The notes: a model not told the origin generated them from the sequence alone. A DNA stretch of 64,000 nucleotides from Corallococcus macrosporus DSM 14697 (GCF_002305895.1 NZ_CP022203.1:4876501-4940500); one strand, 5' to 3'. Counted from the first letter of the stretch, positions 12,672 to 64,000 are shown. A program made the numbers and translations.

Positions 12672-14567
12672 ATGGCCAGCCTCACCGTCCGCACCCCCGA
12701 TGGCAAGGTCCGCGCGGTCTCCCTGCACAAGCGCCTCACCAGCATTGGCAGGGGCCCGGACAACGACATCCCGCTGGAGGACACCTCCGTGCCCGCCAGC
12801 GCCCTGCACGTCACCTTCGACGGCACGCGCTACGAGGTCGGCAGCCTGGGCGCCACCTTCCACGTCAACGGGAAGAAGCGCGACGCGCACGCGCTGTCCA
12901 CCGGGGACGTGGTCCGCGTGGGCCACACCGAGCTGATCTTCGCCCGGGACGACGCCCCCCGCGCGGCGCCCACGCCCCCCTCGCCTCCGCCGCGCGAGCT
13001 GGTGCGCACGTCCAACCCGGACTCGCACACCTCGGAGCTGCCCGGCGTGCCCGGCCGCGAGCTGCTAATGCTGCGCCGGCTCACCGCGTTCAGCGAGCGG
13101 CTGCTGGGGCTCTACGACGTGGAGCGCCTCCTGGAGGGCCTGATGGACGAGGCCATCGAGGTGACGCGCGCCGACAAGGGCTTCCTCATCCTGATGGAGA
13201 ACGGGGAGCCGCGCGTGAAGGTGGCGCGCAACGTGTCCCGGGAGAACATCGAGGACGCGGTGGAGAAGGACAAGCTGTCCGACTCCATCATCGCCAAGGT
13301 GGTGAAGGAGCAGAAGCCGCTCATCGTCGCGGACGCGCTGGACTCACCGGAGTTCAACAAGAGCGACTCCGTGGTGAACCTGCGCGTGCACTCCGTCATG
13401 TGCGTGCCGTTGATGCAGAAGGGCGACCTCTTCGGCGTCATCTACGTGGGCAACGACCGGCTGGTGAACCGCTTCGAACCCAAGAGCGCGAACATGCTCA
13501 CCATCTTCGCGGCCCAGGCGTCGCTCATCCTCCAGAACGCGATGCTGGTGAGCGACCTCAAGCTCGACAACACCGAGCTGCGCCGCAAGCTGGAGGACCA
13601 CCGCTACGGCGACATCGTCGGCGCGTGCCAGGGCATGCGGGACGTGTACAAGCGCATCGACAAGATCGCCCCCACGGACATCTCCGTGCTCATCACCGGC
13701 GAGACGGGCACCGGCAAGGAGCTCATCGCCCGGGAGATCCACCGCCGCTCGCCGCGCGCCAAGGGCCCCTTCATCACCATCAACTGCGGCGCGATTCCGG
13801 AGAACCTGCTGGAGAGCGAGCTGTTCGGCCACGTGAAGGGCGCCTTCACTGGCGCGGTGGCCACCAAGGCCGGCAAGTTCCAGGCGGCCATCGGCGGCAC
13901 GCTCTTCCTGGACGAGATCGGCGAGATGCCCCTGCAGCTCCAGGTGAAGCTGCTCCGCGCGCTCCAGGAGAAGGTCGTCTACAAGGTCGGTGACAACCGC
14001 GGCGAGCCGGTGGACATCCGCGTCGTCGCGGCCACCAACAAGGTGCTCGAGGACGAGGTGAAGAAGAACACCTTCCGCGAGGACCTGTACTACCGCCTCA
14101 ACGTCGTCACCCTGCGGCTGCCGCCCCTGCGCGAGCGCGGCGAGGACGTGGTGGTGCTGGGCCGCTTCTTCCTCCAGAAGTACGCCCGCGAGTTCAGCTC
14201 CAAGGCCCGCGGCTTCACGCCCTCCGCCACCGTCTCCATGCGCAAGTACGGCTGGCCCGGCAACATCCGCGAGTTGGAGAACCGGCTGAAGAAGGCGGTG
14301 GTGCTCGCGGACAAGCCGCTCCTGGGGCCGGACGACCTGGACCTCAAGCCGGAGAACCTGGAGCCCATCATGCCGCTGCTCCAGGCCAAGGAAGAGTTCC
14401 AGAAGCGTTACATCAACGAGGTGCTCGCCCGGAACAACGGTAACCGCACCAAGACGGCGAAGGACCTGGGCGTGGACCCGCGGACCATCTTCCGGCATCT
14501 GGAGAAGCTGGAAGCGGAGAAGTCAGGACGTCCCCTGCCTCCCGAGGAGGGCGACGAGCTAATGTAG
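12672..14567 (+). CDS. FHA-GAF sigma-54 activator (bacterial enhancer-binding protein)
   Basis: This is a 631-residue transcription activator. It has an N-terminal FHA domain (1-95; IGRGPDND near 25-32), a GAF domain (about 130-295), an AAA+ domain (about 310-550) and a C-terminal Fis-type helix-turn-helix (NRTKTAKDLGVDPRTIFRHL). The AAA+ part carries Walker A GETGTGKE (343-350), the sigma-54 loop GAFTGA (390-395) and Walker B LFLDEI (411-416), so it should remodel sigma-54 holoenzyme. The FHA domain lacks the usual Ser-Arg-x-His (it reads VPASALH) and has no NGT turn (FHVNGK), so phosphothreonine binding is uncertain. Being 25 bp behind the pkn4 operon suggests control by Pkn4 or other Ser/Thr kinases. 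Confidence 0.9.
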   Translation: MASLTVRTPDGKVRAVSLHKRLTSIGRGPDNDIPLEDTSVPASALHVTFDGTRYEVGSLGATFHVNGKKRDAHALSTGDVVRVGHTELIFARDDAPRAAPTPPSPPPRELVRTSNPDSHTSELPGVPGRELLMLRRLTAFSERLLGLYDVERLLEGLMDEAIEVTRADKGFLILMENGEPRVKVARNVSRENIEDAVEKDKLSDSIIAKVVKEQKPLIVADALDSPEFNKSDSVVNLRVHSVMCVPLMQKGDLFGVIYVGNDRLVNRFEPKSANMLTIFAAQASLILQNAMLVSDLKLDNTELRRKLEDHRYGDIVGACQGMRDVYKRIDKIAPTDISVLITGETGTGKELIAREIHRRSPRAKGPFITINCGAIPENLLESELFGHVKGAFTGAVATKAGKFQAAIGGTLFLDEIGEMPLQLQVKLLRALQEKVVYKVGDNRGEPVDIRVVAATNKVLEDEVKKNTFREDLYYRLNVVTLRLPPLRERGEDVVVLGRFFLQKYAREFSSKARGFTPSATVSMRKYGWPGNIRELENRLKKAVVLADKPLLGPDDLDLKPENLEPIMPLLQAKEEFQKRYINEVLARNNGNRTKTAKDLGVDPRTIFRHLEKLEAEKSGRPLPPEEGDELM

Positions 14568-14587
14568 GAGCGAGCGGTTCCGACGGG

Positions 14588-15160
14588 ATGATGGACGCCA
14601 CGACGCGGCAAGACACCGGGAGACGACGGCTGCGGCGGCTGGTGGCCGCGAGCCTCGTTGCGTCCGGGTGCCTCATCCCCCAGGACGACACGCTGCTGGA
14701 CGCGGTGCCGGACTTCATGAACCGGCCCCCGCGCATCATCGAAAGCCTGGTGGCGCCCCAGCAGCGCTTCATCCCGGACTTCGGCGCCAGCACCTGCGAC
14801 CTCACCTTCGAGGTGGCCGTCGAGGACCCGGACGTGGACGACCGCATCGTCGTGCACTGGTACGTGGACTACAACCCGCAGGACCCGCGCGGCCCCTACC
14901 GCCAGTACGAGCTGGCCAGCACCCGCGAGCCCCGGCGCTCGGACCGGGGCACGCTGCTCATCAGCCTGGCCTCCGCCAACAACCCGCTGGCCGCGCCCGG
15001 CCCCCACCTGGTGGAGGCGCTGGTGAGCGACGCGGAGCTGGTGGACCGGGTGGTGCAGCCGCGGCCGGTGCAGTTGCCGGATGGCACCACGCTCGACAAC
15101 CCGGGCTTCGCCGTCACCTACTCGTGGGTGGTCAACACCGTCCAGGGGGACTGCCGGTGA
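14588..15160 (+). CDS. Hypothetical lipoprotein
   Basis: This is a 190-residue protein with an arginine-rich n-region and a lipobox (LVASGC) ending at about residue 28, so it is probably lipidated. The start may be either of two adjacent ATGs (14588 or 14591). The mature part contains an Ig-like beta segment (TCDLTFEVAVEDPDVDD, then IVVHWYVDY) and one more cysteine at the C-terminus (QGDC). Its stop overlaps the GTG of the next lipoprotein, so the two are likely co-translated and may act together at the outer membrane. Family not recognised. Confidence 0.75.
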   Translation: MMDATTRQDTGRRRLRRLVAASLVASGCLIPQDDTLLDAVPDFMNRPPRIIESLVAPQQRFIPDFGASTCDLTFEVAVEDPDVDDRIVVHWYVDYNPQDPRGPYRQYELASTREPRRSDRGTLLISLASANNPLAAPGPHLVEALVSDAELVDRVVQPRPVQLPDGTTLDNPGFAVTYSWVVNTVQGDCR

Positions 15161-16767
15161 GGCCGTGGCGCCCGCTCCGGAGGCTCGCGTGGGCCACGCT
15201 GCTGAGCGGGCTCTCCAGCGCGGGCTGCGTGCTGCTGGAGGAGACGCCGGACCCCAGCGAGCTGGTGTGCCGCGAGGACAGCGACTGCGCCGCCAACGAG
15301 GTGTGCTTCCCGGACGGGTGCGGCGACCCGGGCCAGGACATCGTCGTGGAGGTGACGCCCAACCCCCATGACGGCCTGCACGCGCAGGACTTCGAGGTGG
15401 ACGCCGTCCGTCCGGAGCTGAACCTGGCGCTGTTCGGGCCCGCGACCGTCCAGGGCAGCGCGGCGCGCGTCACGGCGCCCGGTGGGGCCTCGCGCCCCTA
15501 CAACGAGCCCATCCACCTGACGGCCCGCGGGCAGAGCGCGCTGCTGCCGGGCGTGACGCGCACCTTCACCGCGAGCCTGGTGCCCGTGAATGGAAGCTGG
15601 ACGCTGCCGGTGGGGACCGGGACGTACACCGTGACGCTGGAGCCGGAGGACCTGGGGCTCCCCCCGGTCCAGGGCCACGCCACCGTGGAGCCGGGCGGCG
15701 CGAGGCCCCTGCATCTGGAGCTGCTGTCCCCCCACCAGGTGGCGCGGCTGGACGGCCAGGTGGTGCGGCAGGGGGCGCTCCTGGTGGACGCCGAGCTGGA
15801 GGCGCAGGCGCTGAACGCGGACCTGTCTCCCCTGTCCCAGCGGGTGCCGGTGTCGCGGAGCACGGGCGCGTTCTCCCTGGCCCTGCCCCTGGAGGCCTCG
15901 CAGCGGACCAGCCTCCTGGTGCGCGTGACGGCGGCGGGTGACGTGTGGGTGCCCCAGAAGACGTTCACCGTGGACCCGCGCGAGCCGCTCGCCGCGCCGC
16001 TGGAGCTGGGCGACTACGGCGCGCCCGTCCAGGTGTCCGGCCGCATCCTCGGGCGGGACGGCCGGCCGGTGGCCCAGGCCACGGTGTCCCTGGGCGGGCA
16101 GGTGGGCGGCGGCGGCACCTTCCAGGGGCCCATGAGCGTCACCGACGCGGAGGGCCGCTTCACGGCGCTGACGCTCCCCTCCGCGCCGGGCAGCGGCCTG
16201 TCCCTGGTGGTGGTGCCGCCGTCGGGCTCCACCGCGGGCCTGACGGTGCAGCCGGTGGAGGTGCCGCGCACCGGCGCCGTCCTGACGGACGTGGTGTGCC
16301 CGGACCGGCGCATCGTGCGGGGCACGATCCTGCAGACGGACGGCGCCTCCCCGGCGCTGGGCGTGCGCGTGCTGGCGGACCCGGTGGGCCAGGTGCCCGG
16401 CTGGCCCCGGCCCCCGGCGGGTGGAGAGTCCCTGGGCACCACGGACGACACCGGCGGCTTCCGCCTGGGGTTGGATCCGGGCATCTACCGCATGGACTTC
16501 ATCCCCACGGAGAACCTGCCCCGCGTCAGCCGCGTCGTCACCGTGCTCCCCGGCGACGACTCGACGGAGCAGGTGCTGGCCACCTTCCCGCTCCAGCGGG
16601 GCCGCACGGTGCGGGGCCTGGTGAGCGAGTCCGGCCTGCCCACGCCCTACGCGTCCGTGCGCTTCTACCGGGTGGCGAACCTGGGCGGGCGCCCGTCCCC
16701 GGTGCTGCTGTCCCAGACGGTGTCGGACCACCTGGGCCGCTACACCGCCCTGCTGCCGGTGCGCTGA
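15157..16767 (+). CDS. Lipoprotein with carboxypeptidase-regulatory-like beta repeats
   Basis: This is a 536-residue protein starting at GTG 15157, which overlaps the preceding stop. It has an N-terminal helix and lipobox (SGLSSAGC). A Cys-rich patch follows (VCREDSDCAANEVCFPDGC), a motif frequent in myxobacterial surface lipoproteins. The rest is beta-rich, with repeated blocks of the type VSGRILGRDGRPVAQATVSL ... TDAEGRFTAL and IVRGTIL ... TDDTGGFRLGL, typical of carboxypeptidase-regulatory-like (transthyretin-fold) domains. A structural or adhesive surface role is inferred. It ends the plus-strand run; the next gene is convergent, 1 bp away. Confidence 0.8.
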   Translation: MRPWRPLRRLAWATLLSGLSSAGCVLLEETPDPSELVCREDSDCAANEVCFPDGCGDPGQDIVVEVTPNPHDGLHAQDFEVDAVRPELNLALFGPATVQGSAARVTAPGGASRPYNEPIHLTARGQSALLPGVTRTFTASLVPVNGSWTLPVGTGTYTVTLEPEDLGLPPVQGHATVEPGGARPLHLELLSPHQVARLDGQVVRQGALLVDAELEAQALNADLSPLSQRVPVSRSTGAFSLALPLEASQRTSLLVRVTAAGDVWVPQKTFTVDPREPLAAPLELGDYGAPVQVSGRILGRDGRPVAQATVSLGGQVGGGGTFQGPMSVTDAEGRFTALTLPSAPGSGLSLVVVPPSGSTAGLTVQPVEVPRTGAVLTDVVCPDRRIVRGTILQTDGASPALGVRVLADPVGQVPGWPRPPAGGESLGTTDDTGGFRLGLDPGIYRMDFIPTENLPRVSRVVTVLPGDDSTEQVLATFPLQRGRTVRGLVSESGLPTPYASVRFYRVANLGGRPSPVLLSQTVSDHLGRYTALLPVR

Positions 16768-54029: not shown

Positions 54030-54055
54030 CCATTGCGCAGTCTGGAGCCGTGAGC

Positions 54056-55720
54056 ATGTTCGACAACCTGAGCATCACCCGCGAGCTGTTGCTGGCGTTC
54101 ACCACCATGGTGGCCATCCTCATCGCCATCGTGATGGCCACGTATACGACGCTGAACCGCACCGCGACGGCGGACCTGGGCAACAAGCAGAGCACCGAGG
54201 TGCTCCTGGCCATCCGGACGCTGGAAGGCGACCTCGCCGACCTGGAGACGGGCCAGCGGGGCTTCCTCATCACCGGCGACGAGCGCTTCCTGGAGCCCTA
54301 CACGTCCGCGCGCGTCAGCTTCGCGCAGAACCTCAATCGCATCCGGGAGCTGACCACGGACAGCCCGCAGCAGCAGGAGCGGCTTCAGGAAATCCGAGAC
54401 CTGCTCCAGCAGTGGCTGAGCCAGCACCTCGAAACCACCATCAGCCAGCGTCGTGAAGTCAAGGCCGGCCGGGCGGACTTGAACGCCCTCTTCGACGTGG
54501 AGAAAGGGGCGCGCGGCAAGGAGTTCGCCGACCGGCTGCGCACGCTCTTCAACGAAGTCGCGAACGAGGAGACCTCGCTCCAGACGAAGCGCACGGATGA
54601 GGTCAACAAGCTGGTGGAGCTGCTGTACGACACCCTCGTCTTCGGCGGGGCCATGGGCGTGATGCTCGCGGGGCTGCTGTCCTACTTCCTCACGCGCAGC
54701 ATCGTCCGGCCGCTGGGGGAGGCCGTTCAGGTGACCGAGCAGGTCACGGGCGGCGACCTGACCGCGACCATCTCCGTCCGCGGCAAGGACGAGACGGGGC
54801 AGATGATGACGGGCATGCGGGAGATGATTCACCGGCTGTCGGGGGTCATCAGCGAGGTGCGCGGCGCGGCGGGCTCGCTGTCCTCCGCGTCCACCCAGGT
54901 GGCCGCCGCCTCGCAGGGCCTGTCCCAGGGCACCAGCACGCAGGCGGCGTCGGTGGAGGAGACCACCGCGAGCCTGGAGCAGCTCAACGTCACCATCACC
55001 CAGAACGCGGAGAACAGCCGGCAGATGGAGCAGATGGCGCTCAAGGGCGCCCGGGACGCCGAGGAGAGCGGCCGCGCGGTGAGGGAGACGGTGGACGCGA
55101 TGAACGCCATCGCGGAGCGCATCTCCATCGTGGAGGAGATTGCCTACCAGACGAACCTGCTGGCGCTGAACGCCGCGGTGGAGGCCGCCCGGGCCGGAGA
55201 GCATGGCCGGGGCTTCTCGGTCGTCGCCACCGAGGTGCGCAAGCTGGCCGAGCGCAGCCAGAAGTCCGCGAAGGAGATTGGCGCGATGGCGACCTCCAGC
55301 GTGCGCGTGGCGGAGCGCAGCGGGCAGCTCTTGACGGAGCTGGTGCCGGCCATCCGGCGCACGGCGGAGCTGGTGCAGCAGGTGACGACGGTGTCGAAGG
55401 AGCAGGCCATTGGCGTGTCGCAGATGAGCCGCGCCATGGTGCAGGTGGACCAGGTCACCCAGCGCAACGCGTCCGCGGCGGAGGAGCTGTCCTCCACGGC
55501 CGAGGAGATGGCGACGCAGGCCGAGTCGCTGCTGCAGATCATGACCTTCTTCCGGCTGGCGGATGGCAACGGGTACGTGCCGCGCAACACGCCGATGCTC
55601 CCCAAGGCCCCCGCGCCGCGTGCGCCCCTGTCACCGGCGAGCTCGCTGTACGCCGCGGCGCAGGGGCACCTGCCCGCGGCGCCGGCGCCGAGCTCGAACC
55701 AGGACTTCCAGCGGTTCTAG
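54056..55720 (+). CDS. Methyl-accepting chemotaxis protein with CHASE3 sensor
   Basis: This is a 554-residue receptor. I chose ATG 54056, 8 bp after GGAG; a GTG at 54050 is too close to it. Two membrane helices (about 15-30 and 200-220) flank a periplasmic CHASE3-type four-helix sensor, recognised by [26 protein letters not shown] linker and a long coiled-coil signalling domain follow, with the hairpin tip [23 protein letters not shown]. An alanine/proline-rich tail ends in NQDFQRF, which might be a tether for adaptation enzymes. It probably works with the CheA, CheW and CheR of the same operon. Confidence 0.93.
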
Positions 55721-55732
55721 GCGGAGACGTCC

Positions 55733-56314
55733 ATGCTCAACAGCAACTCCATCGACAAAGCCGCCCGGTCCAACTACCTGAGCTTCATGCTCGCGGGTGA
55801 GGAGTACGGCGTCGGCATCCTGCGGGTGCGGGAGATCATCGAGCACCGGCCCATCACCCGGGTGCCGGGCATGCCCGCCGCCGTGCAGGGCGTCATCAAC
55901 CTGCGCGGCAGCGTGGTGCCCGTGGTGGACCTGGCGGTGAAGTTCGGGCTGCCGCCGCGGCCCATCACCCGGTGGACGTGTTTCGTCATCGTCGAGGTGA
56001 CGCTCGACGGGCAGCAGACCGCGATTGGCCTGCTGACGGACGCCGTGAGCGAGGTGTTGGAGCTGGGGCCGGAGGACATCGAGGTGCCCCCTGCCTTTGG
56101 CACCCGTGTGCGGCTGGACTTCCTGCTCGGCATGGGGCGGCACGATGACAAGTTCATCATGCTGTTGGACCTGGACCGGCTGCTGTCCGTGTCCGAGCTG
56201 CTGAGCTTGATGTCGGCCACGGCCGAAGAGGCTCCGGCGGCTGAAGCCGACGTGGTGCCCGCCGTGGAAGTCGCCACGGAGAGCGCCCCGGATGAGGCGG
56301 CTGGAAACGGCTGA
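55733..56314 (+). CDS. cheW: CheW coupling protein
   Basis: This is a 193-residue adaptor that links the receptor to CheA. The CheW fold is evident: FMLAGEEYGVGILRVREII, then ITRVPGMPAAVQGVINLRGSVVPV and a VVDLAVKFGL strand. An acidic, alanine-rich C-terminal tail of about 30 residues is extra to the fold. It lies 12 bp after the receptor and 6 bp before the cheR ATG, so the three genes form one transcript. Confidence 0.95.
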   Translation: MLNSNSIDKAARSNYLSFMLAGEEYGVGILRVREIIEHRPITRVPGMPAAVQGVINLRGSVVPVVDLAVKFGLPPRPITRWTCFVIVEVTLDGQQTAIGLLTDAVSEVLELGPEDIEVPPAFGTRVRLDFLLGMGRHDDKFIMLLDLDRLLSVSELLSLMSATAEEAPAAEADVVPAVEVATESAPDEAAGNG

Positions 56315-56320
56315 CGGGTG

Positions 56321-57199
56321 ATGACCGGCCTTCTGCCCACCACGCCGCCCGTGTTGACGGCACGGGAGCTGTCCCTCTTCCAGGCGCTGGTGGAGCGGGA
56401 GGTGGGGATCCACCTGTCTCCTGCCAAGGACGCGCTGGTGGCGAACCGGCTGGCGCGCCGGCTCCGGGAGTTGGGGCTGACGTCGTTCGGTGCGTACTAC
56501 GCGTACGTCACAGAGAAGGGGCATGAGGCGGAGAAGGTGCGGATGATTGACAGTCTCTGCACCCACGAGACGTCGTTCTTCCGCGAGCCCCAGCACTTCG
56601 AGCTGCTGCGCGAGCGCGTCTTCCCGGAGTGGATGGCGCAGGCCAACGCGGGGCGGAGGTCGAAGCACCTCCGCGTCTGGAGCGCGGCGTGCTCCACGGG
56701 GGAAGAGCCCTACTCCATCGCCATGAGCCTGCTGGACGCGTTCCCGCCGGGCTCGGGCTGGAGCCTGGAGGTGCTGGCAACGGACCTGTCCACGTGGGCC
56801 CTGGAGCGGACGCAGGAGGGCCTGTGGAGCCTGGAGCGGGCGGCCACGATTCCGCAGCCCCTGCTGCGGGCGTTCATGCTCAAGGGTGTGCGGACCCAGG
56901 AGGGGTTGATGAAGGCGGGGCCGGAGCTGCGCTCCATCATGCGCTTCGGCCGCGTCAACCTGAACGCGCCAGGTGAGTGGCCCGCGGGGCCGTTCGACCT
57001 GATCTTCTGCCGGAACGTCCTCATCTACTTCGGCGCGGAGGCCCGCGGCCGGGTGATTCGCGGGATGCTGCAACGGCTCCCGCCCACGGGGTACTTCTTC
57101 CTGGGCCACGCGGAGAGCCTGATTGGTGTGGACGTGGACGTCCGGTCCGTGAGCGCGAACGTGTACACGCCACGGACCGGCGGCATGAGCCGGTTCTGA
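56321..57199 (+). CDS. cheR: CheR chemoreceptor methyltransferase
   Basis: This 292-residue enzyme methylates glutamates of the receptor with S-adenosylmethionine. The helical N-terminal domain is followed by the signature CTHETSFFREPQHFELL, the SAM-binding strand RVWSAACSTGEEPYSIAM, LATDLS and the catalytic FDLIFCRNVLIYF. The ATG 56321 is preceded by an overlapping GTG 3 bp upstream. It is the last gene of the cluster; no methylesterase (cheB) or deamidase follows. The next gene is convergent, 112 bp away. Confidence 0.95.
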   Translation: MTGLLPTTPPVLTARELSLFQALVEREVGIHLSPAKDALVANRLARRLRELGLTSFGAYYAYVTEKGHEAEKVRMIDSLCTHETSFFREPQHFELLRERVFPEWMAQANAGRRSKHLRVWSAACSTGEEPYSIAMSLLDAFPPGSGWSLEVLATDLSTWALERTQEGLWSLERAATIPQPLLRAFMLKGVRTQEGLMKAGPELRSIMRFGRVNLNAPGEWPAGPFDLIFCRNVLIYFGAEARGRVIRGMLQRLPPTGYFFLGHAESLIGVDVDVRSVSANVYTPRTGGMSRF

Positions 57200-57311: not shown

Positions 57312-59753
57312 CTACTCGCTCCGCAGCGCCTGTATCGGGTCGACTCGCGCCGCGCGAACCGCCGGCACCAGGCTGGCGGCGAGGCCAGCCAGGGCGAGCA
57401 CCGCCAGCACCGCCACGACCGCCAGCGGATCGGCCACGCTGATGCCGAAGAGGAAGCTCTGCACGAGGCGTGAGAAGGCCATCGCGAGCGCGAGGCCGAT
57501 CACCAGCCCCAAGCCGATCTGCCAGCCCGCCTCGCGGAGCACGTCCCGCAAAATTCGCGACTGAGGCGCCCCCAGCGCGGCGCGCACGCCGAACTCGTGC
57601 CGGCGCGACGCGACCGCCACCGCCATCACCGCGTACAACCCGACCGACGCCAGCAAGAGGGCCAGTCCGGCGAACAGCCCCACCAGCAACAGATTCAGCC
57701 GCTGCGCGCTCGTGGTCGACGCGACGATGGTCTCCATGGGCTGGAGGTTGGAGATTGGCTGCAGGGGCGCGACCTCCAGGATGGCGCTGCGCAGCTCCCG
57801 CTCGTTCATCCCCACCGTCGTGGAGCGCAACCTGACCCCATAGCTGAGGGGTCCGAACTCGCGCAGCAGTGCCCAGATGGGCGGTGGAATCTGCGCCAGG
57901 GGCGCGTAGAGCGTCGGCGGCATCGGCTCGCCGGGACCGAACTGGCGCATGTCACCGACCACGCCAATCACCCGCATCGCGATGTTCGGCCCTTCGTCCA
58001 TGGGGAGCGTCACCGTCTTCCCCAGCGGCTCCCCGTCCAGGTAGGCGCGGGCGAAGCCGGCGCTGACCAGACACACCCGCTCGCTCCCCGCGTCGTCGCG
58101 GTCGTCGAAGCCGCGCCCGGCGAGCACGGGGATGCTGAAGGTCTCCAGGAAGCCTGGGCTGATGAGCCGGTATTGTCCGGTGATGGTGCGCTGGTCGGGG
58201 AGCACCATGCTGTAGTTGAGCTGGGAGCCCGTCGGCAGGTTGGTCGAAGCGCCGACGTTCTCGACCCCGGGGAAGGCCCGCAGCCGCTCGAGGATGCGGC
58301 GGGTCTGCTCGATGGCATCGCCTGCCTCGACGTACCGCTCCTTCACCGGCGCCAGGGTGAACGTGGTGACCGAGCGGCTCTGAAAGCCCATCGGCACGGA
58401 CTCGAGCTCCTGCAGGCTGCGCATGAACAGCGCCGCGCCCAGCAGCAGCACCACGGCCACCGCGATCTGCGCGACCACCAGCACGCGCCCCAGACGGCCG
58501 CTCTGGCGGCTCAAGCCGCCACGGCCGCCACCGCTCAGCTCGCGCGCCAGATCGACGTGATGGCTCCGGAGGACGCCCAGCGTCGCCGCCATCACCGCCG
58601 TCGCCAGCCCCGCCGCGAGCGCGAACGCCAGGCTGGCGCCATCCAGCGCGACGGCCTCGCCGCGCAGCCACTCGGAAGGCACCAGCCCACCCAGGAGCCG
58701 CAGGCCCACCCACGCGAGGCCCAGGCCGGCGACGGCGCCCACCAACCCCACCAGCGCGCCCTCCGCCAACGCCGGCAAGCCCAGGCGCCACAGGGTGGCC
58801 CCCAGCGCGGCGCGCACCGCGCCGTCGTGGGTTCGCGCCAGGGCGCGCAGCAGCATCAGGCTGGCGAGGTTGATGGCCGCGATCACCAGCACGCACGCGG
58901 CCGCCCCCAGGAACAGCCAGAGCGTGTCGCCGGAGCGGCGCGCGAACACGCTCGTCCCGAGCGGCAGCGCCGACGGCGGGTTCTTCCGCAGATACTCCTG
59001 CTGACGCTCCGTCGCGCCCCCGCTGTCCGCCAGCATGGCGCTCAGCACGACGCGCGTCTCCGCGGCCGCGCCCTCGACCGTGGCGTCCGGCTTGAGCCTC
59101 GCCACGACGATCTGGTTCGTGGAGAGGTCGCGGCTCACCGGGTCCGGCTGGAGCGACATGATGAGGTCGAAGCGCTCCGGCCAACGGAACGCCTCGGGGA
59201 GCACGCCGACGACCTGAACGGCCCGGCCCTCGATCTGCAGACTCCGCCCCACGACCGACGCATCCGCGCCGAGGCGGGTGCGCCAGAATTCGTGACCGAG
59301 GATGACCGCCTCCGGCCCGTTGGGCCGATCCTCGTCGGTGTTGAAGTTGCGCCCGAGCGCGGGGGGCAGCCCCAGGGTCTCGACGAAGCCTCTATCGGCC
59401 CGCAGCGCCGTCACCACCTCGGCCTGGTCGCCGAAGGCGATGTTCGTGTTGGTCGTCCAGCCCATCAGGATTCCGGCCGACTCCACGCTTCGCATCGCCT
59501 TGAGCAGCGGGTAGTACCGCGGCGCGGCGATGTTCTGGTCCTGCTCGACGATGATGCCGAGCGTGACCAGCCGGTCAGGCTTCGGGAACGGCAACGGCTT
59601 CAGCAGCGCCTGGTGGAGCAGCGAGAACGCGATGGTGACCGTGGCGACACCCAGCGCCAGCGTCAGGACCGCGAGGACAAAGTATCCGGGGCGCCGCAAC
59701 AATCCGCGCCAGGACTGGCGCGCCTCTTCGAGCATGACGCCGAGCGAATTCAT
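57312..59753 (-). CDS. MacB/FtsX-type duplicated ABC permease (ADOP-like)
   Basis: This is an 813-residue inner-membrane protein made of two MacB_PCD-FtsX halves (each a periplasmic domain and membrane helices). The first helix is FVLAVLTLALGVATVTIAFS, later helices include LGAAACVLVIAAINLASLML and VLVVAQIAVAVVLLLGAALF, and the C-terminal half ends with an FtsX domain (FGVRAALGAPQSRIL). No ATPase or membrane-fusion protein is in view, as in the orphan ADOP permease family. Its ATG 59753 overlaps the stop of the 34-residue peptide gene (ATGA), so they are translated together. Export or efflux of the operon's product is inferred. Confidence 0.88.
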   Translation of the reverse strand: MNSLGVMLEEARQSWRGLLRRPGYFVLAVLTLALGVATVTIAFSLLHQALLKPLPFPKPDRLVTLGIIVEQDQNIAAPRYYPLLKAMRSVESAGILMGWTTNTNIAFGDQAEVVTALRADRGFVETLGLPPALGRNFNTDEDRPNGPEAVILGHEFWRTRLGADASVVGRSLQIEGRAVQVVGVLPEAFRWPERFDLIMSLQPDPVSRDLSTNQIVVARLKPDATVEGAAAETRVVLSAMLADSGGATERQQEYLRKNPPSALPLGTSVFARRSGDTLWLFLGAAACVLVIAAINLASLMLLRALARTHDGAVRAALGATLWRLGLPALAEGALVGLVGAVAGLGLAWVGLRLLGGLVPSEWLRGEAVALDGASLAFALAAGLATAVMAATLGVLRSHHVDLARELSGGGRGGLSRQSGRLGRVLVVAQIAVAVVLLLGAALFMRSLQELESVPMGFQSRSVTTFTLAPVKERYVEAGDAIEQTRRILERLRAFPGVENVGASTNLPTGSQLNYSMVLPDQRTITGQYRLISPGFLETFSIPVLAGRGFDDRDDAGSERVCLVSAGFARAYLDGEPLGKTVTLPMDEGPNIAMRVIGVVGDMRQFGPGEPMPPTLYAPLAQIPPPIWALLREFGPLSYGVRLRSTTVGMNERELRSAILEVAPLQPISNLQPMETIVASTTSAQRLNLLLVGLFAGLALLLASVGLYAVMAVAVASRRHEFGVRAALGAPQSRILRDVLREAGWQIGLGLVIGLALAMAFSRLVQSFLFGISVADPLAVVAVLAVLALAGLAASLVPAVRAARVDPIQALRSE

Positions 59754-59854
59754 AGGGCCAACTCCAACATCTTGAATGCGTCCTCGTCGACGGTTTCCGG
59801 ATGAATCAACGGCGCGCCGCCAGTGCGGCTCGTCCCCTCCGCCTTGCCCGTCAT
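59750..59854 (-). CDS. 34-residue peptide, possible RiPP precursor or leader
   Basis: This is a short gene whose ATG (59854) overlaps the stop of the upstream oxygenase gene and whose stop overlaps the permease start, both as ATGA. Double coupling makes a chance ORF unlikely. The product begins MTGKAEGTSRTGGAPLIHP and continues with the acidic, amphipathic ETVDEDAFKMLELAL. The second part looks like the helical recognition segment of RiPP leader peptides; the N-terminal part holds the only Arg (position 10) and a Gly/Ser/Thr-rich stretch. There is no Cys. It could be the substrate of the oxygenases and arginase, but the leader-like part is at the C-terminus, which is not the usual order. Confidence 0.6.
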   Translation of the reverse strand: MTGKAEGTSRTGGAPLIHPETVDEDAFKMLELAL

Positions 59855-61002
59855 CGTACAGGAACGAGGCCGCTGCCACGCACCTGTGTGACGCTGGGAA
59901 CCGGGCCTTCGGCGGTGCAGTCCGTCCCATCCAGACATTGCTCGAGCCGGGTGAGGTAGAGGCGCCGGATGCGCGCCAGCTCGGAGCCGTCGTTCGCCTT
60001 CAGCGCCGCGCGCAGGACCTCGGCCATGCTGCGGCGCCCCAGCTCGACCGGGGCGAGCCGGTCGAAGTCGGCCGGTGGCACGCTCCCGCCGAGCTTCCGC
60101 CGCACGGCCTCGGGGCTGGACTTGATGCGCTTGCCGAACACCTCCGCCCACCCCGTGGAGACGGCGTAGTCCGCCAGGTTGCTCTGGTCGACGAAGTCGA
60201 AGCTGACCGAGATGGACGTGTCCAGCGTCCGCACATGGTGTGCCCAGCGCGTGCCGACGAAGAGCACCTGCCCCACCTCCAGGTCGCCGGTCCACTTGAC
60301 CGCCTGGTGCCACGTCGGAAAGTCGACCTCGTCGGGGTGCTCGGGGTCCATGTAGCCGACCTCGGGATTGTAGACGTGGCGAAGGTCGTCCGGAGAATAC
60401 AGCGTCGCCCGCTTGCGGCCCTTGAGCTGCGCGATCAACGCGATGGTCCCGTTGTTGTCGATGTGCAGCGGCGTCAGCGCCCCGGGCAGGCTGACCAGCA
60501 ACCAGAAGTGGTTGAACAGCGAGTAGTAGTAGGGCAGCGCGTGGTTCCAGGGGACCAGTGGCGCAGGCACCAGTGGCTCCACCTCGGCGAAGACGGGGTC
60601 ATCCGCCTTGTGGACGATCCTCAACGTGCCGCAATACAGCGGCAGGTCCTGCGCGACGAACTGCGCATAATCCCCCTCCATCCAGCGCTCGGCGAAGAGC
60701 TCCCGCGCCCGCTCGGGCTGGCGGATGTAGTCCAGGTAGCGGCTGAACTCCGTCTCGACGCTGACCAGGCTCGACTTGCGATTGGTGATGAAGTTGGGCG
60801 CCTTGGCGAAGGCGCTCAGCTTGCCGAAGCGGGACTCAAGATACTCCAGGCGCTGCCAGGCTTCGTAGCCCGGCCAGGCCTTGATGTAGTCCTCGACGAT
60901 CCATGGGTTCTCATGGAGCACCCTGGGATTGCTCGTCGCCAGGCGGCGGAACTCCTCGCTGGACACCACCGGTATCTGCTTGCTCTGCATGGCTCGACTC
61001 AT
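59851..61002 (-). CDS. JmjC/cupin_8-type Fe(II)/2-oxoglutarate oxygenase (copy B)
   Basis: This is a 383-residue protein of the FIH/JmjC-like cupin_8 family, which hydroxylates amino-acid side chains in peptides or proteins. The iron ligands are His180 and Asp182 in TPLHIDNN, and His255 in WAHHVRTL; SISVSFDF follows as the last core strand. The N-terminal 110 residues are helical. It is about 45 percent identical by eye to copy A at 63112-64000 over the shared region. ATG 61002 overlaps the arginase stop (ATGA), and its own stop overlaps the peptide start. The substrate is unknown; the operon context suggests a small peptide. Confidence 0.85.
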   Translation of the reverse strand: MSRAMQSKQIPVVSSEEFRRLATSNPRVLHENPWIVEDYIKAWPGYEAWQRLEYLESRFGKLSAFAKAPNFITNRKSSLVSVETEFSRYLDYIRQPERARELFAERWMEGDYAQFVAQDLPLYCGTLRIVHKADDPVFAEVEPLVPAPLVPWNHALPYYYSLFNHFWLLVSLPGALTPLHIDNNGTIALIAQLKGRKRATLYSPDDLRHVYNPEVGYMDPEHPDEVDFPTWHQAVKWTGDLEVGQVLFVGTRWAHHVRTLDTSISVSFDFVDQSNLADYAVSTGWAEVFGKRIKSSPEAVRRKLGGSVPPADFDRLAPVELGRRSMAEVLRAALKANDGSELARIRRLYLTRLEQCLDGTDCTAEGPVPSVTQVRGSGLVPVR

Positions 61003-61892
61003 TCGGAAGGAGGAAACGGGGCGAGGTGGGGCGCGATGCCGGCGAGCAGCCTCGCGGCGAGCGCGCTGGTGGTGTCCCGGTGGTCGAGCAGCGGGTTGAC
61101 CTCCATGACGTCGAGCCCCACCACGCGGCGCCGGGACGCGATGAAGCGGGCCATCTGCTCAATCAGCTCCCCGCGCACCCCACCGGGCACCGGGTGGCCG
61201 GTCCCCGGCGCCAGGCGCGGGTCGATCGCGTCGACGTCGATGGAGATGTAGACCGGCTCGCCTTCGGGCAACGTGGCCAACACGCTCTCCAGCGGCGCGC
61301 TGCGCGCGGCGGTCGCCGAAAGCACGGTCATCTTGTCGGAGCGGGCGCTCTCATCGAAGTAGGTGATGCCGCGGTGGCCGACCTGCAGGATGCGGCCGAC
61401 GTGGCCCATGCCCGCGATGCGCCGCAGGACCTGCTTGTGGTCGTGCCACCGTCCGCCGGACCACGCGCAGAAGTCGGTGTGCGCGTCGAACCAGACGATG
61501 TTGAGCGTGGGATGGCAGCGCAGCGCGGCCACCGCCGCGTAGGAGATGGAGTGGTCGCCGCCGAGCACGATGGGGACCGCGCCGGCCTCGACAATCCGCC
61601 CGATCTCCTGCTCCGTCCTGTCGAGGACGTCGGCCCAGTCGTGGCCATGCACGCCCTCCACGTCGCCTCGGTCAACGCCAGTGACCTCGGGCCGGAGCCC
61701 CTGGCTGGCGCGCCGGATCGCCTCCGGCCCGAAGCGCGCGCCGGAGGAGGCGCCGTTTCCGCAATCACTCGGGACGCCGAGGACCTCGATGCGGGCGCGC
61801 GGCGCACCCGCTACGGCTCCCGGCCAGCCGAACAGGGCCTGGGGAGCCGCTTCGCCGGAGCTCGTCGTCGCCTCATTCCGCCATTCCATCAT
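60999..61892 (-). CDS. Arginase/agmatinase-family ureohydrolase with complete metal site
   Basis: This is a 297-residue enzyme of the arginase fold. I chose ATG 61892, overlapping the stop of the upstream gene (ATGA). All six Mn-binding residues are present: His114 (LGGDHSIS), Asp136/His138/Asp140 (WFDAHTD), and Asp219/Asp221 (SIDVDAIDP). It should hydrolyse a guanidino group to urea. A free-arginine or agmatine role is possible, but the coupled operon with a peptide, two oxygenases and an RRE-like partner suggests a peptide-arginine substrate giving ornithine, as in known peptide arginases (OspR type). This is inference. Confidence 0.88.
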   Translation of the reverse strand: MMEWRNEATTSSGEAAPQALFGWPGAVAGAPRARIEVLGVPSDCGNGASSGARFGPEAIRRASQGLRPEVTGVDRGDVEGVHGHDWADVLDRTEQEIGRIVEAGAVPIVLGGDHSISYAAVAALRCHPTLNIVWFDAHTDFCAWSGGRWHDHKQVLRRIAGMGHVGRILQVGHRGITYFDESARSDKMTVLSATAARSAPLESVLATLPEGEPVYISIDVDAIDPRLAPGTGHPVPGGVRGELIEQMARFIASRRRVVGLDVMEVNPLLDHRDTTSALAARLLAGIAPHLAPFPPSE

Positions 61893-63115
61893 CGATCTTT
61901 CGCCGCGCTCATGGCGGTCAAGAGGACGTGCAGGGCCGTCATCGCGGTGACGCCCCAGCAGCGCGCCATCGGGGTACAGCCAACCAGGTCCATGCCGACA
62001 ATCTGGCAGTGGGCGCCGAGCAGGCAAAGCAGCCGGTGCAGCTCGGCGTATTCGAAATGCGTGCTCGGCGCGGCCCCGTCGGCGCTCCCTCCCGGCGGCG
62101 CGAGCGAGCGGATGTCCATGCTCAGGTACACCCGCGGACAGTCCGCCAGACAGCGCACCAACGCGTCCTCGCCGCCCGCGTCCCTCAGCTCCGGCGCGGA
62201 GAGCACGGTGAGGCCGGCCAGGGCCCGGTCCACCGAGCCGATGGCGCCCAGGTGCACATAGCGCGTCACGCCAGGAAGGCCGAGCGCGTGCGCCGGCAAG
62301 GTGCCCGGTGAGATGAAGGAAGGATGGACGGCGCCACGTTCGCGCGCGTCAGCCGCGATCCTGACGACCGCGATCGGCTGTCGCGCCTGCAGACGGCGGA
62401 TGGCCGGAAAGGCCACGGACGCATCGCCGCCGATCAGCACGGGCAGGCTGCCGGCCCCCGTCACCGTCTCCAACACGGCGTCGACGCGGCCGAACAACGC
62501 CGCCTGCTCCTCCCCTCGGGTGATGAACACGTCGCCACAATCGGAGATCGTCGCGCCTCGCAGGATGGGGCGGCGGCGGTCGGCGTCGTACCAGCCCAGC
62601 GGCTTGCCGCCGTGGCGGTCCAATCCGTAGAGAATCTGCAGCGACGCTTCCCGCAGCGCCGCGGGCGCTTCGCGCGCGCCAGCGGCCGAGCGGTCGCTGA
62701 GATCGTAGGCGACGCCGAGCACGACGAAGTCCGAACTCGAGGGCTCCAGCTTCTGGGCGGGCGCGTCGAACATCCGCACGGGCGCGTCCGTGAGCAGGCG
62801 GCGGCTCGACGCGTGCGTGTTCTCGCCGACCAGGAACCCCTTCGCGCGCAGGCTCTCCAGCGCGGCCCCCGCCTTGGCGCCGTACCGCCCGTCGCCGAGG
62901 ACGGCGCTCACGCCGCGAGGCGTCTCGAACTCGAGGAGGAGCTTGTGCAACGCGATGGGGATGCGGATCCGGGTGCCATCCAACTGCAGATAGATGGTGG
63001 CGAACTTCTCGTCGAGCTGCTCGACCCGCATCGCGGGTGAGACGACCAGCCGCACCTCGTCCGCGCCGCCAGCCGGCTCGCGAGGGTCCGTCGGAGACAG
63101 AGCGTCCGCCATCAC
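61889..63115 (-). CDS. Pseudo-arginase with N-terminal PqqD/RRE-like domain
   Basis: This is a 408-residue protein, numbered from GTG 63115; the ATG at 63112 is equally possible and forms TGATG with the stop of the upstream gene. Residues about 20-97 read like a PqqD-type winged-helix RiPP recognition element: strands VRLVVSP and ATIYLQLDG, then helices around IALHKLLLEF and GAALESLRAKGFLV. Residues 125-405 keep the arginase fold, but GGDAS replaces GGDHS, AADAR replaces DAHTD, and SMDIR replaces SIDVD. Of six metal ligands only Asp334 is kept. It is therefore probably a catalytically dead partner that binds a leader peptide and supports the active arginase encoded next. Confidence 0.8.
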   Translation of the reverse strand: MMADALSPTDPREPAGGADEVRLVVSPAMRVEQLDEKFATIYLQLDGTRIRIPIALHKLLLEFETPRGVSAVLGDGRYGAKAGAALESLRAKGFLVGENTHASSRRLLTDAPVRMFDAPAQKLEPSSSDFVVLGVAYDLSDRSAAGAREAPAALREASLQILYGLDRHGGKPLGWYDADRRRPILRGATISDCGDVFITRGEEQAALFGRVDAVLETVTGAGSLPVLIGGDASVAFPAIRRLQARQPIAVVRIAADARERGAVHPSFISPGTLPAHALGLPGVTRYVHLGAIGSVDRALAGLTVLSAPELRDAGGEDALVRCLADCPRVYLSMDIRSLAPPGGSADGAAPSTHFEYAELHRLLCLLGAHCQIVGMDLVGCTPMARCWGVTAMTALHVLLTAMSAAKDR

Positions 63116-64000
63116 ACCGCTCCAGCCGCTGCCGGCTTGAGCTCCGGCGCCGCGTCTTCCTCGAGCGCCGCCAGCAGCTCACGCCTGACCCGCGCTGACC
63201 GCTCCGGCTGCGAGCCGGCCAGGGCGCTTCGAAGGACGCAGATCATCAGCTCGCGCCCGAGCTCCGGGTCACTGGCGCCCGTCAGCGCGTCATGCACGCG
63301 GCGGTCCGGGATACGCGTGCGAATCAGCTCCGCGTTCTTCCTCGCGAACCGGCCCAGCTCGTCCCTCCAGTCCACCGACTTCGCGTACGCGCGCAGGTTG
63401 AGGGCGTTGATGAAGTCGAAGCTGACGGTGGTCGAGTCCGACAGCGTCACGACGTGGTGCGCCCAGTTCGGTCCCCAGATGAGCAGCTCCCCGGGATTGA
63501 GCAGCCCGGTCCACGGGCGGGCTTCGCGCCAGGTCGGGAACTCGTCATCGTTGGGGTTCAGGGGGTCCAGGTAGCCGACGTCCGGGTTGTAGTAGTGGCG
63601 CTTGTCCTCGGCGCTGTAGAGGATCGCCCGCTTCTGCCCCCGCAGTTGCGCCAGGTAGGCGATGACCGCGTTGTTGTCCTGGTGCAGCGGCGTGAGCGCG
63701 CCCTTCAGGCTCACGTACAGCCAGACGTGGTTGCCTGACTGGTAGTAGTACGGGATCTCGTTGTTGAAGTGCTCCAGCGGCTCCGGGAGGATGGGGTCGA
63801 GCTGCGAGAAGACCTCCTCCCGGGCATGGCGGACCAGCCGGAGGTTCCCGCTGTACAGGGGCAGGCCGAGCTCCCGCAGGAGCTGCGCGCTGCCCTTCGA
63901 CCACTTCCCCTCGAAGAGCGCCTCCACGCGCTCCGGGGCCTTGACGTACTCCAGATAGGTCCCGAAGTCGGTCATCACCTGGCACATCTTCGCCTGCTTC
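63112..64000 (-). CDS. JmjC/cupin_8-type oxygenase (copy A), 5' end outside window
   Basis: This is a partial gene. The visible 296 residues align with residues from about 110 onward of copy B, and the frame stays open to the window edge (KQAKMCQVM ...), so the internal Met at 63987 is not the start. Iron ligands are kept: TPLHQDNN (His and Asp) and WAHHVVTL, then STTVSFDF. Paired segments with copy B include ALTPLH, YNPDVGYLDP against YNPEVGYMDP, and WTG...GELLIWG. It probably hydroxylates the same or a related peptide. It is the first gene of the operon in view; the promoter and possibly more genes lie beyond the right edge. Confidence 0.85.
   Translation of the reverse strand, partial: KQAKMCQVMTDFGTYLEYVKAPERVEALFEGKWSKGSAQLLRELGLPLYSGNLRLVRHAREEVFSQLDPILPEPLEHFNNEIPYYYQSGNHVWLYVSLKGALTPLHQDNNAVIAYLAQLRGQKRAILYSAEDKRHYYNPDVGYLDPLNPNDDEFPTWREARPWTGLLNPGELLIWGPNWAHHVVTLSDSTTVSFDFINALNLRAYAKSVDWRDELGRFARKNAELIRTRIPDRRVHDALTGASDPELGRELMICVLRSALAGSQPERSARVRRELLAALEEDAAPELKPAAAGAV

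Follow-up and report, generated by a model that had tools for sequence, protein, structure and literature searches.

At one end of a 64,000-nucleotide stretch of the Corallococcus macrosporus DSM 14697 genome (the window; G000:C1:4876501-4940500, from a genome assembled as one contig of 8.97 Mb), six genes on the minus strand (57312-64000) make up the latter half of a gene cluster, which the window end cuts in two. This cluster is almost certainly one for a ribosomally synthesized and post-translationally modified peptide (RiPP), with a precursor encoded beyond the window, and its product is probably a peptide with two cysteine-linked hydroxylated ornithines. Two parallel tailoring modules are present, each consisting of a pseudo-arginase (pArg), an arginase (Arg) and a JmjC/Cupin_8 Fe(II)/2-oxoglutarate (2OG) oxygenase (cup). 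A first-pass annotation of the window had proposed a RiPP pathway to hydroxylated, ornithine-containing peptides from its RiPP recognition element (RRE), arginase and Fe/2OG modules, and this continues to be the best reading of the sequence; the peptide that it had put forward has to be replaced.

The genes named in that annotation hold up, but their operon does not start at 64000: when the contig was extended rightward, as had been recommended, the same-strand operon was seen to continue for ∼6.9 kb, a stretch in which both the actual precursor gene and another triplet are found. In 5′-to-3′ order, and all on the same strand, the cluster comprises (locus L004, where window position = L004 position + 57499) a radical S-adenosylmethionine (rSAM)/SPASM maturase (L004:11834-13369, the 5′-most of these genes), an RRE-acyltransferase-like protein with a C-terminal RRE (L004:10566-11837, ∼68065-69336 in extrapolated window coordinates), the 49-residue precursor (L004:10297-10446, 3.8 kb past the window end), a daptide-like RRE-site-2 protease (S2P)-type protease (L004:8873-10171), pArg1 (L004:7625-8851), Arg1 (L004:6753-7628), cup1 (L004:5613-6710, interrupted by the window end and present in the window as 63112-64000), pArg2 (61889-63115), Arg2 (60999-61892), cup2 (59851-61002) and a permease (57312-59753). 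The maturase, the acyltransferase-like protein, the protease and the second triplet had been missed in the window-bound gene list. Farther upstream on the same strand, ∼0.4 kb from the rSAM gene, lies a small Cys-rich open reading frame (ORF) with a signal-like N-terminus (L004:13774-13989).

Relatives were sought with a pArg2 scan of genome contigs, which gave Myxococcus vastator AM301, Luteibacter sp. SG786 and L. jiangsuensis, and a search of Luteibacter's family added a fifth genome (G203). The window's genome and M. vastator fall in one genus and form the Myxococcus pair of the comparisons below. Together the five genomes encode seven precursors (two genes in each Luteibacter cluster), all with the core A[GDN]RCNGRC followed by a variable tail. 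The leader is LLIDEFEIIELEDRLELA, and the block LL[IV]DEFEIIELEDRLELA-x-RCNGRC is common to all seven. The arginines common to all seven precursors are three, namely leader Arg29 and core R35 and R39; both core arginines directly precede a Cys, giving two invariant R-C units. Asn37 is also invariant, residue 33 is Ala, and position 41 is Asp or Asn. Between DEFEII and NGRC (22 codons), the compared pairs all differ at 5–11 codons synonymously and at 0–1 codons with an amino-acid change, save for the Myxococcus pair, which differs at one synonymous codon, and this near-exclusively synonymous divergence indicates amino-acid-level selection on the RCNGRC precursor. Two hallmarks of RiPP clusters are thereby in place: a short, conserved leader-plus-core precursor beside modifying enzymes in five genomes and, as modeled for the C-terminus of the acyltransferase-like protein, an RRE fold on a modifying enzyme.

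The peptide gene originally chosen was a 34-codon ORF (59750-59854, minus strand) between cup2 and the permease. Its M. vastator counterpart is four codons long (MTAL*), and it has neither a Pfam match nor a tblastn match in the other four clusters (Luteibacter and G203 included). With a four-codon counterpart in one relative and none found elsewhere, it was rejected as precursor; it is probably not one, and at most a translational-coupling ORF.

Rather than lying apart in related genomes, an outcome that the first-pass annotation had named as counting against its proposal, the genes form a syntenic unit. The ten-gene order rSAM-acyltransferase-like-precursor(s)-protease-pArg1-Arg1-cup1-pArg2-Arg2-cup2 is kept in M. 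vastator and in both Luteibacter genomes, at different genomic sites; G203, the third member of Luteibacter's family, has the same order and both arginase pairs but lacks cup2. The hosts belong to two phyla, Myxococcota and Pseudomonadota, and such conservation of order at unrelated sites favors the proposed pathway. Few genomes carry the cluster (2 of 195 in the Myxococcota and 3 of 147 in the Luteibacter family), and no further convincing precursors or pArgs were found in viral contigs, plasmids or the sampled Gammaproteobacteria and Pseudomonadota. Its neighbors, named from reading of their translations, are chemotaxis-type genes in Myxococcus, atp genes in G203 and comM- and glnB-like genes in Luteibacter. 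Differing neighbors around a syntenic cluster would fit horizontal transfer as one unit; an empty-site comparison gave a match at the left flank only. Relatives of the rSAM enzyme on Deinococcus and Streptomyces plasmids have no arginase annotated beside them.

The active sites divide the two kinds of ureohydrolase cleanly. In the window, Arg2 (PF00491, 9.2e-62) has all metal ligands (GGDH, DAHTD, SIDVDxxDP) and is by these ligands catalytically intact, and pArg2 (PF00491, 7e-25) has almost none left, both as first described. Across the five genomes, the ligands H-D-H-D-D-D plus E are kept in 10 of 10 Args (Arg1, likewise PF00491, and Arg2), and the full set is found in none of the ten pArgs, ligands one to four and the E being gone in every one. 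The pArgs nevertheless remain under purifying selection: in the Myxococcus pair dN/dS is 0.33–0.34 for the pArgs (pArg2 0.34), compared with 0.22–0.23 for the Args and 0.18–0.27 for the oxygenases. Ligands uniformly kept in one paralogue and lost in another that is selected for again favor the proposed pathway. In phylogenetic trees, each of the six triplet proteins forms a separate clade with both lineages in it (support 100/99 and 96/95 for Arg1 and Arg2, 95/95 and 100/99 for pArg1 and pArg2, and 100/100 for cup1 and cup2), so that a single, old duplication of the triplet predates the split of the lineages. A 678-residue pArg1-Arg1 fusion in the Luteibacter ORF list proved to be a shadow frame.

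In sequence, agmatinase and proclavaminate amidinohydrolase come closest to the arginases, as might be expected if the genes formed a catabolic operon for free arginine or agmatine beside an unrelated peptide. Their scores against all NCBIfam agmatinase and arginase models are below cut-off, however, and such an operon would account neither for an invariant precursor that in both phyla belongs to one syntenic unit with the arginases, nor for the maturase, the RRE protein and the daptide-type protease, nor for two pseudoenzymes maintained under selection; we regard it as very improbable indeed. It is instead highly probable that the arginases act on the core arginines. Post-translational Arg-to-Orn conversion in RiPPs is shared with the landornamide-type peptide arginases (OspR, FlmR, OhkR), which belong to a different family: PF12640 (motifs EEHxE, DxHxD, DIDLD) has no match in the cluster arginases, which match PF00491 only. 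In each of the five genomes, the two invariant Arg-Cys arginines have their match in two arginase pairs, which also speaks for this pathway; one arginase pair per arginine is, on balance, somewhat likelier than not.

What the pArgs contribute is suggested by their N-terminal domain. In the AlphaFold2 (AF2) model of pArg2 (predicted local distance difference test score [pLDDT] 70.6), residues 22-97 have the predicted order E-E-E-E-H-H-H-E, that of RRE/PqqD domains, consistent with the RRE-like pseudo-arginase proposed at first pass (RRE-like domain at about residues 20-98). The rest is a ureohydrolase fold, matching E. coli agmatinase (Z 26.1, 3.3 Å over 269 residues) and metformin hydrolase (Z 25.1, 3.2 Å over 270); the VIA-align matches for pArg2 spanned residues 111-408, that is, the ureohydrolase part, and included no RRE structure. 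Other Myxococcota encode arginases of two domains, in which the N-terminus is RRE-like and the metal site is complete (L017:5388-6599, L018:2632-3909, L019:9698-10903 and L020:6128-7408), around which no recognizable RiPP cluster was seen. The pArg N-terminus is related to theirs (hhalign probability 73–80%), which suggests an RRE-arginase fusion as the ancestor of pArg. Sequence profiles gave no link among the RRE-like domains of the different cluster enzymes.

We consider it likely that pArg serves Arg as its leader-binding partner. Metformin hydrolase (MefH/MfmAB) is a ureohydrolase heterohexamer in which only one subunit type is active, and so shows that ureohydrolase subunits with and without activity can form one complex; as here, its operon encodes two ureohydrolase paralogues of which one type is catalytic, although its substrate is a small molecule, its metal is nickel and no RRE has been described for it. 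OspR is a homodimer, and its paper mentions no separate RRE pseudoenzyme. The pArgs could instead be guides for the oxygenases, or could protect or sequester the peptide: neither Arg nor cup has a recognized RRE, each of the two is encoded beside pArg, and the pArg-Arg complex is itself a proposal. The ureohydrolase fold common to pArg and Arg, their parallel trees, the overlap of their genes in the window's genome and the precedent of heteromeric active/inactive ureohydrolases all make such other roles distinctly unlikely.

Another candidate leader-binding protein, the acyltransferase-like protein, has no Pfam or NCBIfam match and a poor overall model (mean pLDDT 47.6), in which the C-terminal domain nonetheless resembles the RRE of ThcOx (Z 8.3, 2.0 Å over 81 residues), with further matches to TbiB1 (Z 7.1), PbtF (Z 6.6), TigE and lasso B1. 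The N-terminal part of the model is of too low quality for its fold to be named. This part aligns weakly with a lysophospholipid-type acyltransferase, with H-x4-R for H-x4-E, which makes acyltransferase activity uncertain; lipidation of the peptide by this protein is possible but rather doubtful. The protease may resemble the daptide enzyme, an RRE fused to an intramembrane S2P, and matches the daptide equivalog NF041824 below cut-off (87.6 bits; cut-off 300). Unlike in daptides, no terminal-amine enzymes are seen in the cluster and the core does not end in Thr.

For the bond made by the maturase, the closest precedent is the enteropeptins (kgr clusters of Enterococcus cecorum and Streptococcus thermophilus), in which a G-R-C unit yields thiomorpholine and the PF00491 arginase KgrD is encoded. 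The two systems share an rSAM maturase, an R-C core unit and a PF00491 arginase giving ornithine beside Cys. The present clusters have two R-C units where the enteropeptins have one, and encode an RRE-like pseudo-arginase for each of two arginases; JmjC oxygenases, the S2P-type protease, the RRE-acyltransferase-like protein and the hosts are further differences. Thiomorpholine rings are on this comparison a little short of an even chance. The rSAM enzyme of the same RiPP cluster could make another modification, with hydroxy-ornithine still made: an NxxC β-thioether between Cys40 and Asn37, as in NxxcB, where the Asn linked to Cys lies upstream of it; a ranthipeptide bond between Cys and Asp; or a change that is no thioether. 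N37-G-R-C40 has the NxxC spacing with an invariant Asn, and the rSAM enzyme matches the PapB ranthipeptide maturase model (4.5e-30, below the model cut-off); it also weakly matches the FlmE/OhkG family of landornamide-type systems (1.2e-35, below cut-off). An NxxC bond would, however, account for only one of the two invariant cysteines (Ala33 sits three residues before Cys36), and these alternatives leave unexplained why an Arg precedes each Cys. We give them a substantial but minority share, behind the Arg-Cys thioether.

Both oxygenases match Cupin_8 (PF13621; 1.6e-17 for the whole of cup1, 7e-17 for cup2) and have an intact HxD...H iron site, as noticed from the window alone, and the triad is present in 9 of 9 cup proteins. 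That they hydroxylate the ornithines is somewhat probable, by analogy with the biphenomycins (bip, pbs, bpm), where arginase action is followed by JmjC/cupin hydroxylation of the new ornithine (hydroxylases BipG and PbsQ). The biphenomycin clusters differ in that neither an MNIO nor its RRE partner is among the genes here, the core is RCNGRC with no FRF, and the arginase is PF00491 rather than UPF0489/PF12640. The nearest solved relatives of cup2 include the arginyl hydroxylase JMJD5 (4.2e-10) and FIH, which would fit oxygenases that hydroxylate Arg first or act on another residue (Asn37 or residue 41), the arginases working before or after. Since the JmjC enzyme of biphenomycin requires Orn and leaves Arg alone, and position 41 varies, we consider this unlikely.

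In G203, a TauD gene (L031:5362-6300) directly follows Arg2. It was rejected as a substitute for cup2: it is 73% identical to a TauD that Luteibacter has besides cup2, so that G203 shows absence of cup2, not a clear swap. In Luteibacter, cup2 is followed by genes for an ATP-grasp protein and a TauD-type 2OG oxygenase (L014:13103-14242 and 14268-15215). The third codon of the coupled cup2 start in M. vastator is an in-frame TGA (L013:11752-11766), and translation must therefore begin at the next ATG.

The sequences themselves show which genes are present and that they are syntenic, the precursor, which active sites are kept or lost, how the triplet was duplicated and the selection on its members; each reaction, the pArg-Arg pairing, the order of steps and export are what we infer by combining these with the enteropeptin, biphenomycin and metformin hydrolase precedents. 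RREs in the rSAM enzyme, acyltransferase-like protein, S2P protease and both pseudo-arginases would bind the leader. The rSAM/SPASM enzyme would act on the core A[GDN]-R-C-N-G-R-C, forming Cys thioethers that most likely join Cys S to Cα of the neighboring Arg in one or both Arg-Cys units, as in the enteropeptin thiomorpholine. Each arginase, in complex with its own pseudo-arginase as the source of the RRE that it is itself without, would convert one core Arg to ornithine, which the oxygenase of that triplet would then hydroxylate; the protease would cut off the leader, and a MacB/FtsX permease would export the product.

Several points weigh against this pathway. No N-methyltransferase for ornithine of the enteropeptin type is among the cluster genes by Pfam or NCBIfam, and the enteropeptin likeness is drawn from gene content and core motif. 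The RRE of pArg rests on predicted topology, with no Pfam match, and N37-x-x-C40 also fits the NxxC β-thioether motif. G203 has both arginase pairs yet no cup2, and a rule of one triplet per arginine therefore does not hold strictly where the oxygenase is concerned. Finally, five genomes in two lineages are known, with no one-triplet cluster found to test the count. On balance we still favor a RiPP cluster with two parallel modules and the full pathway, with fair confidence. The joint, most specific version, a new RiPP family in which a dead RRE-bearing paralogue steers each arginase to one Arg-Cys unit and the product carries two thiomorpholine-fused hydroxy-ornithines, perhaps lipidated, is improbable as a whole. 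No description of a system with this gene set was found in open-licence PubMed Central papers; one elsewhere is possible.

The six window genes are joined by stop/start overlaps at 59750-59753, 59851-59854, 60999-61002, 61889-61892 and 63110-63114, as first reported. The permease, correctly recognized as of duplicated type, is a MacB_PCD/FtsX protein (PF12704 and PF02687) named ADOP family by NCBIfam (TIGR03434, 687.7 bits; cut-off 622.3), and is a putative exporter or immunity protein. It is also present in M. vastator; in Luteibacter and G203, two MacB/FtsX permease genes lie directly upstream of the rSAM gene. Chemotaxis-type genes on the plus strand (MCP-, CheW- and CheR-like from reading; 54050-57199) end beside the operon's 3′ end, and the CheR-like gene has 81–87% identity to counterparts in several Myxococcus genomes without the cluster.

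In these clusters, a pseudoenzyme appears to bear the leader-binding domain for its active paralogue, twice over, once for each of two equivalent residues of a short core, which makes it testable how RiPP enzymes distinguish identical residues. The system would add a PF00491 peptide arginase outside the enteropeptins, in Gram-negative hosts, to the few ornithine-making RiPP enzymes, and its compact hexapeptide core (RCNGRC) would be suited to reconstitution.

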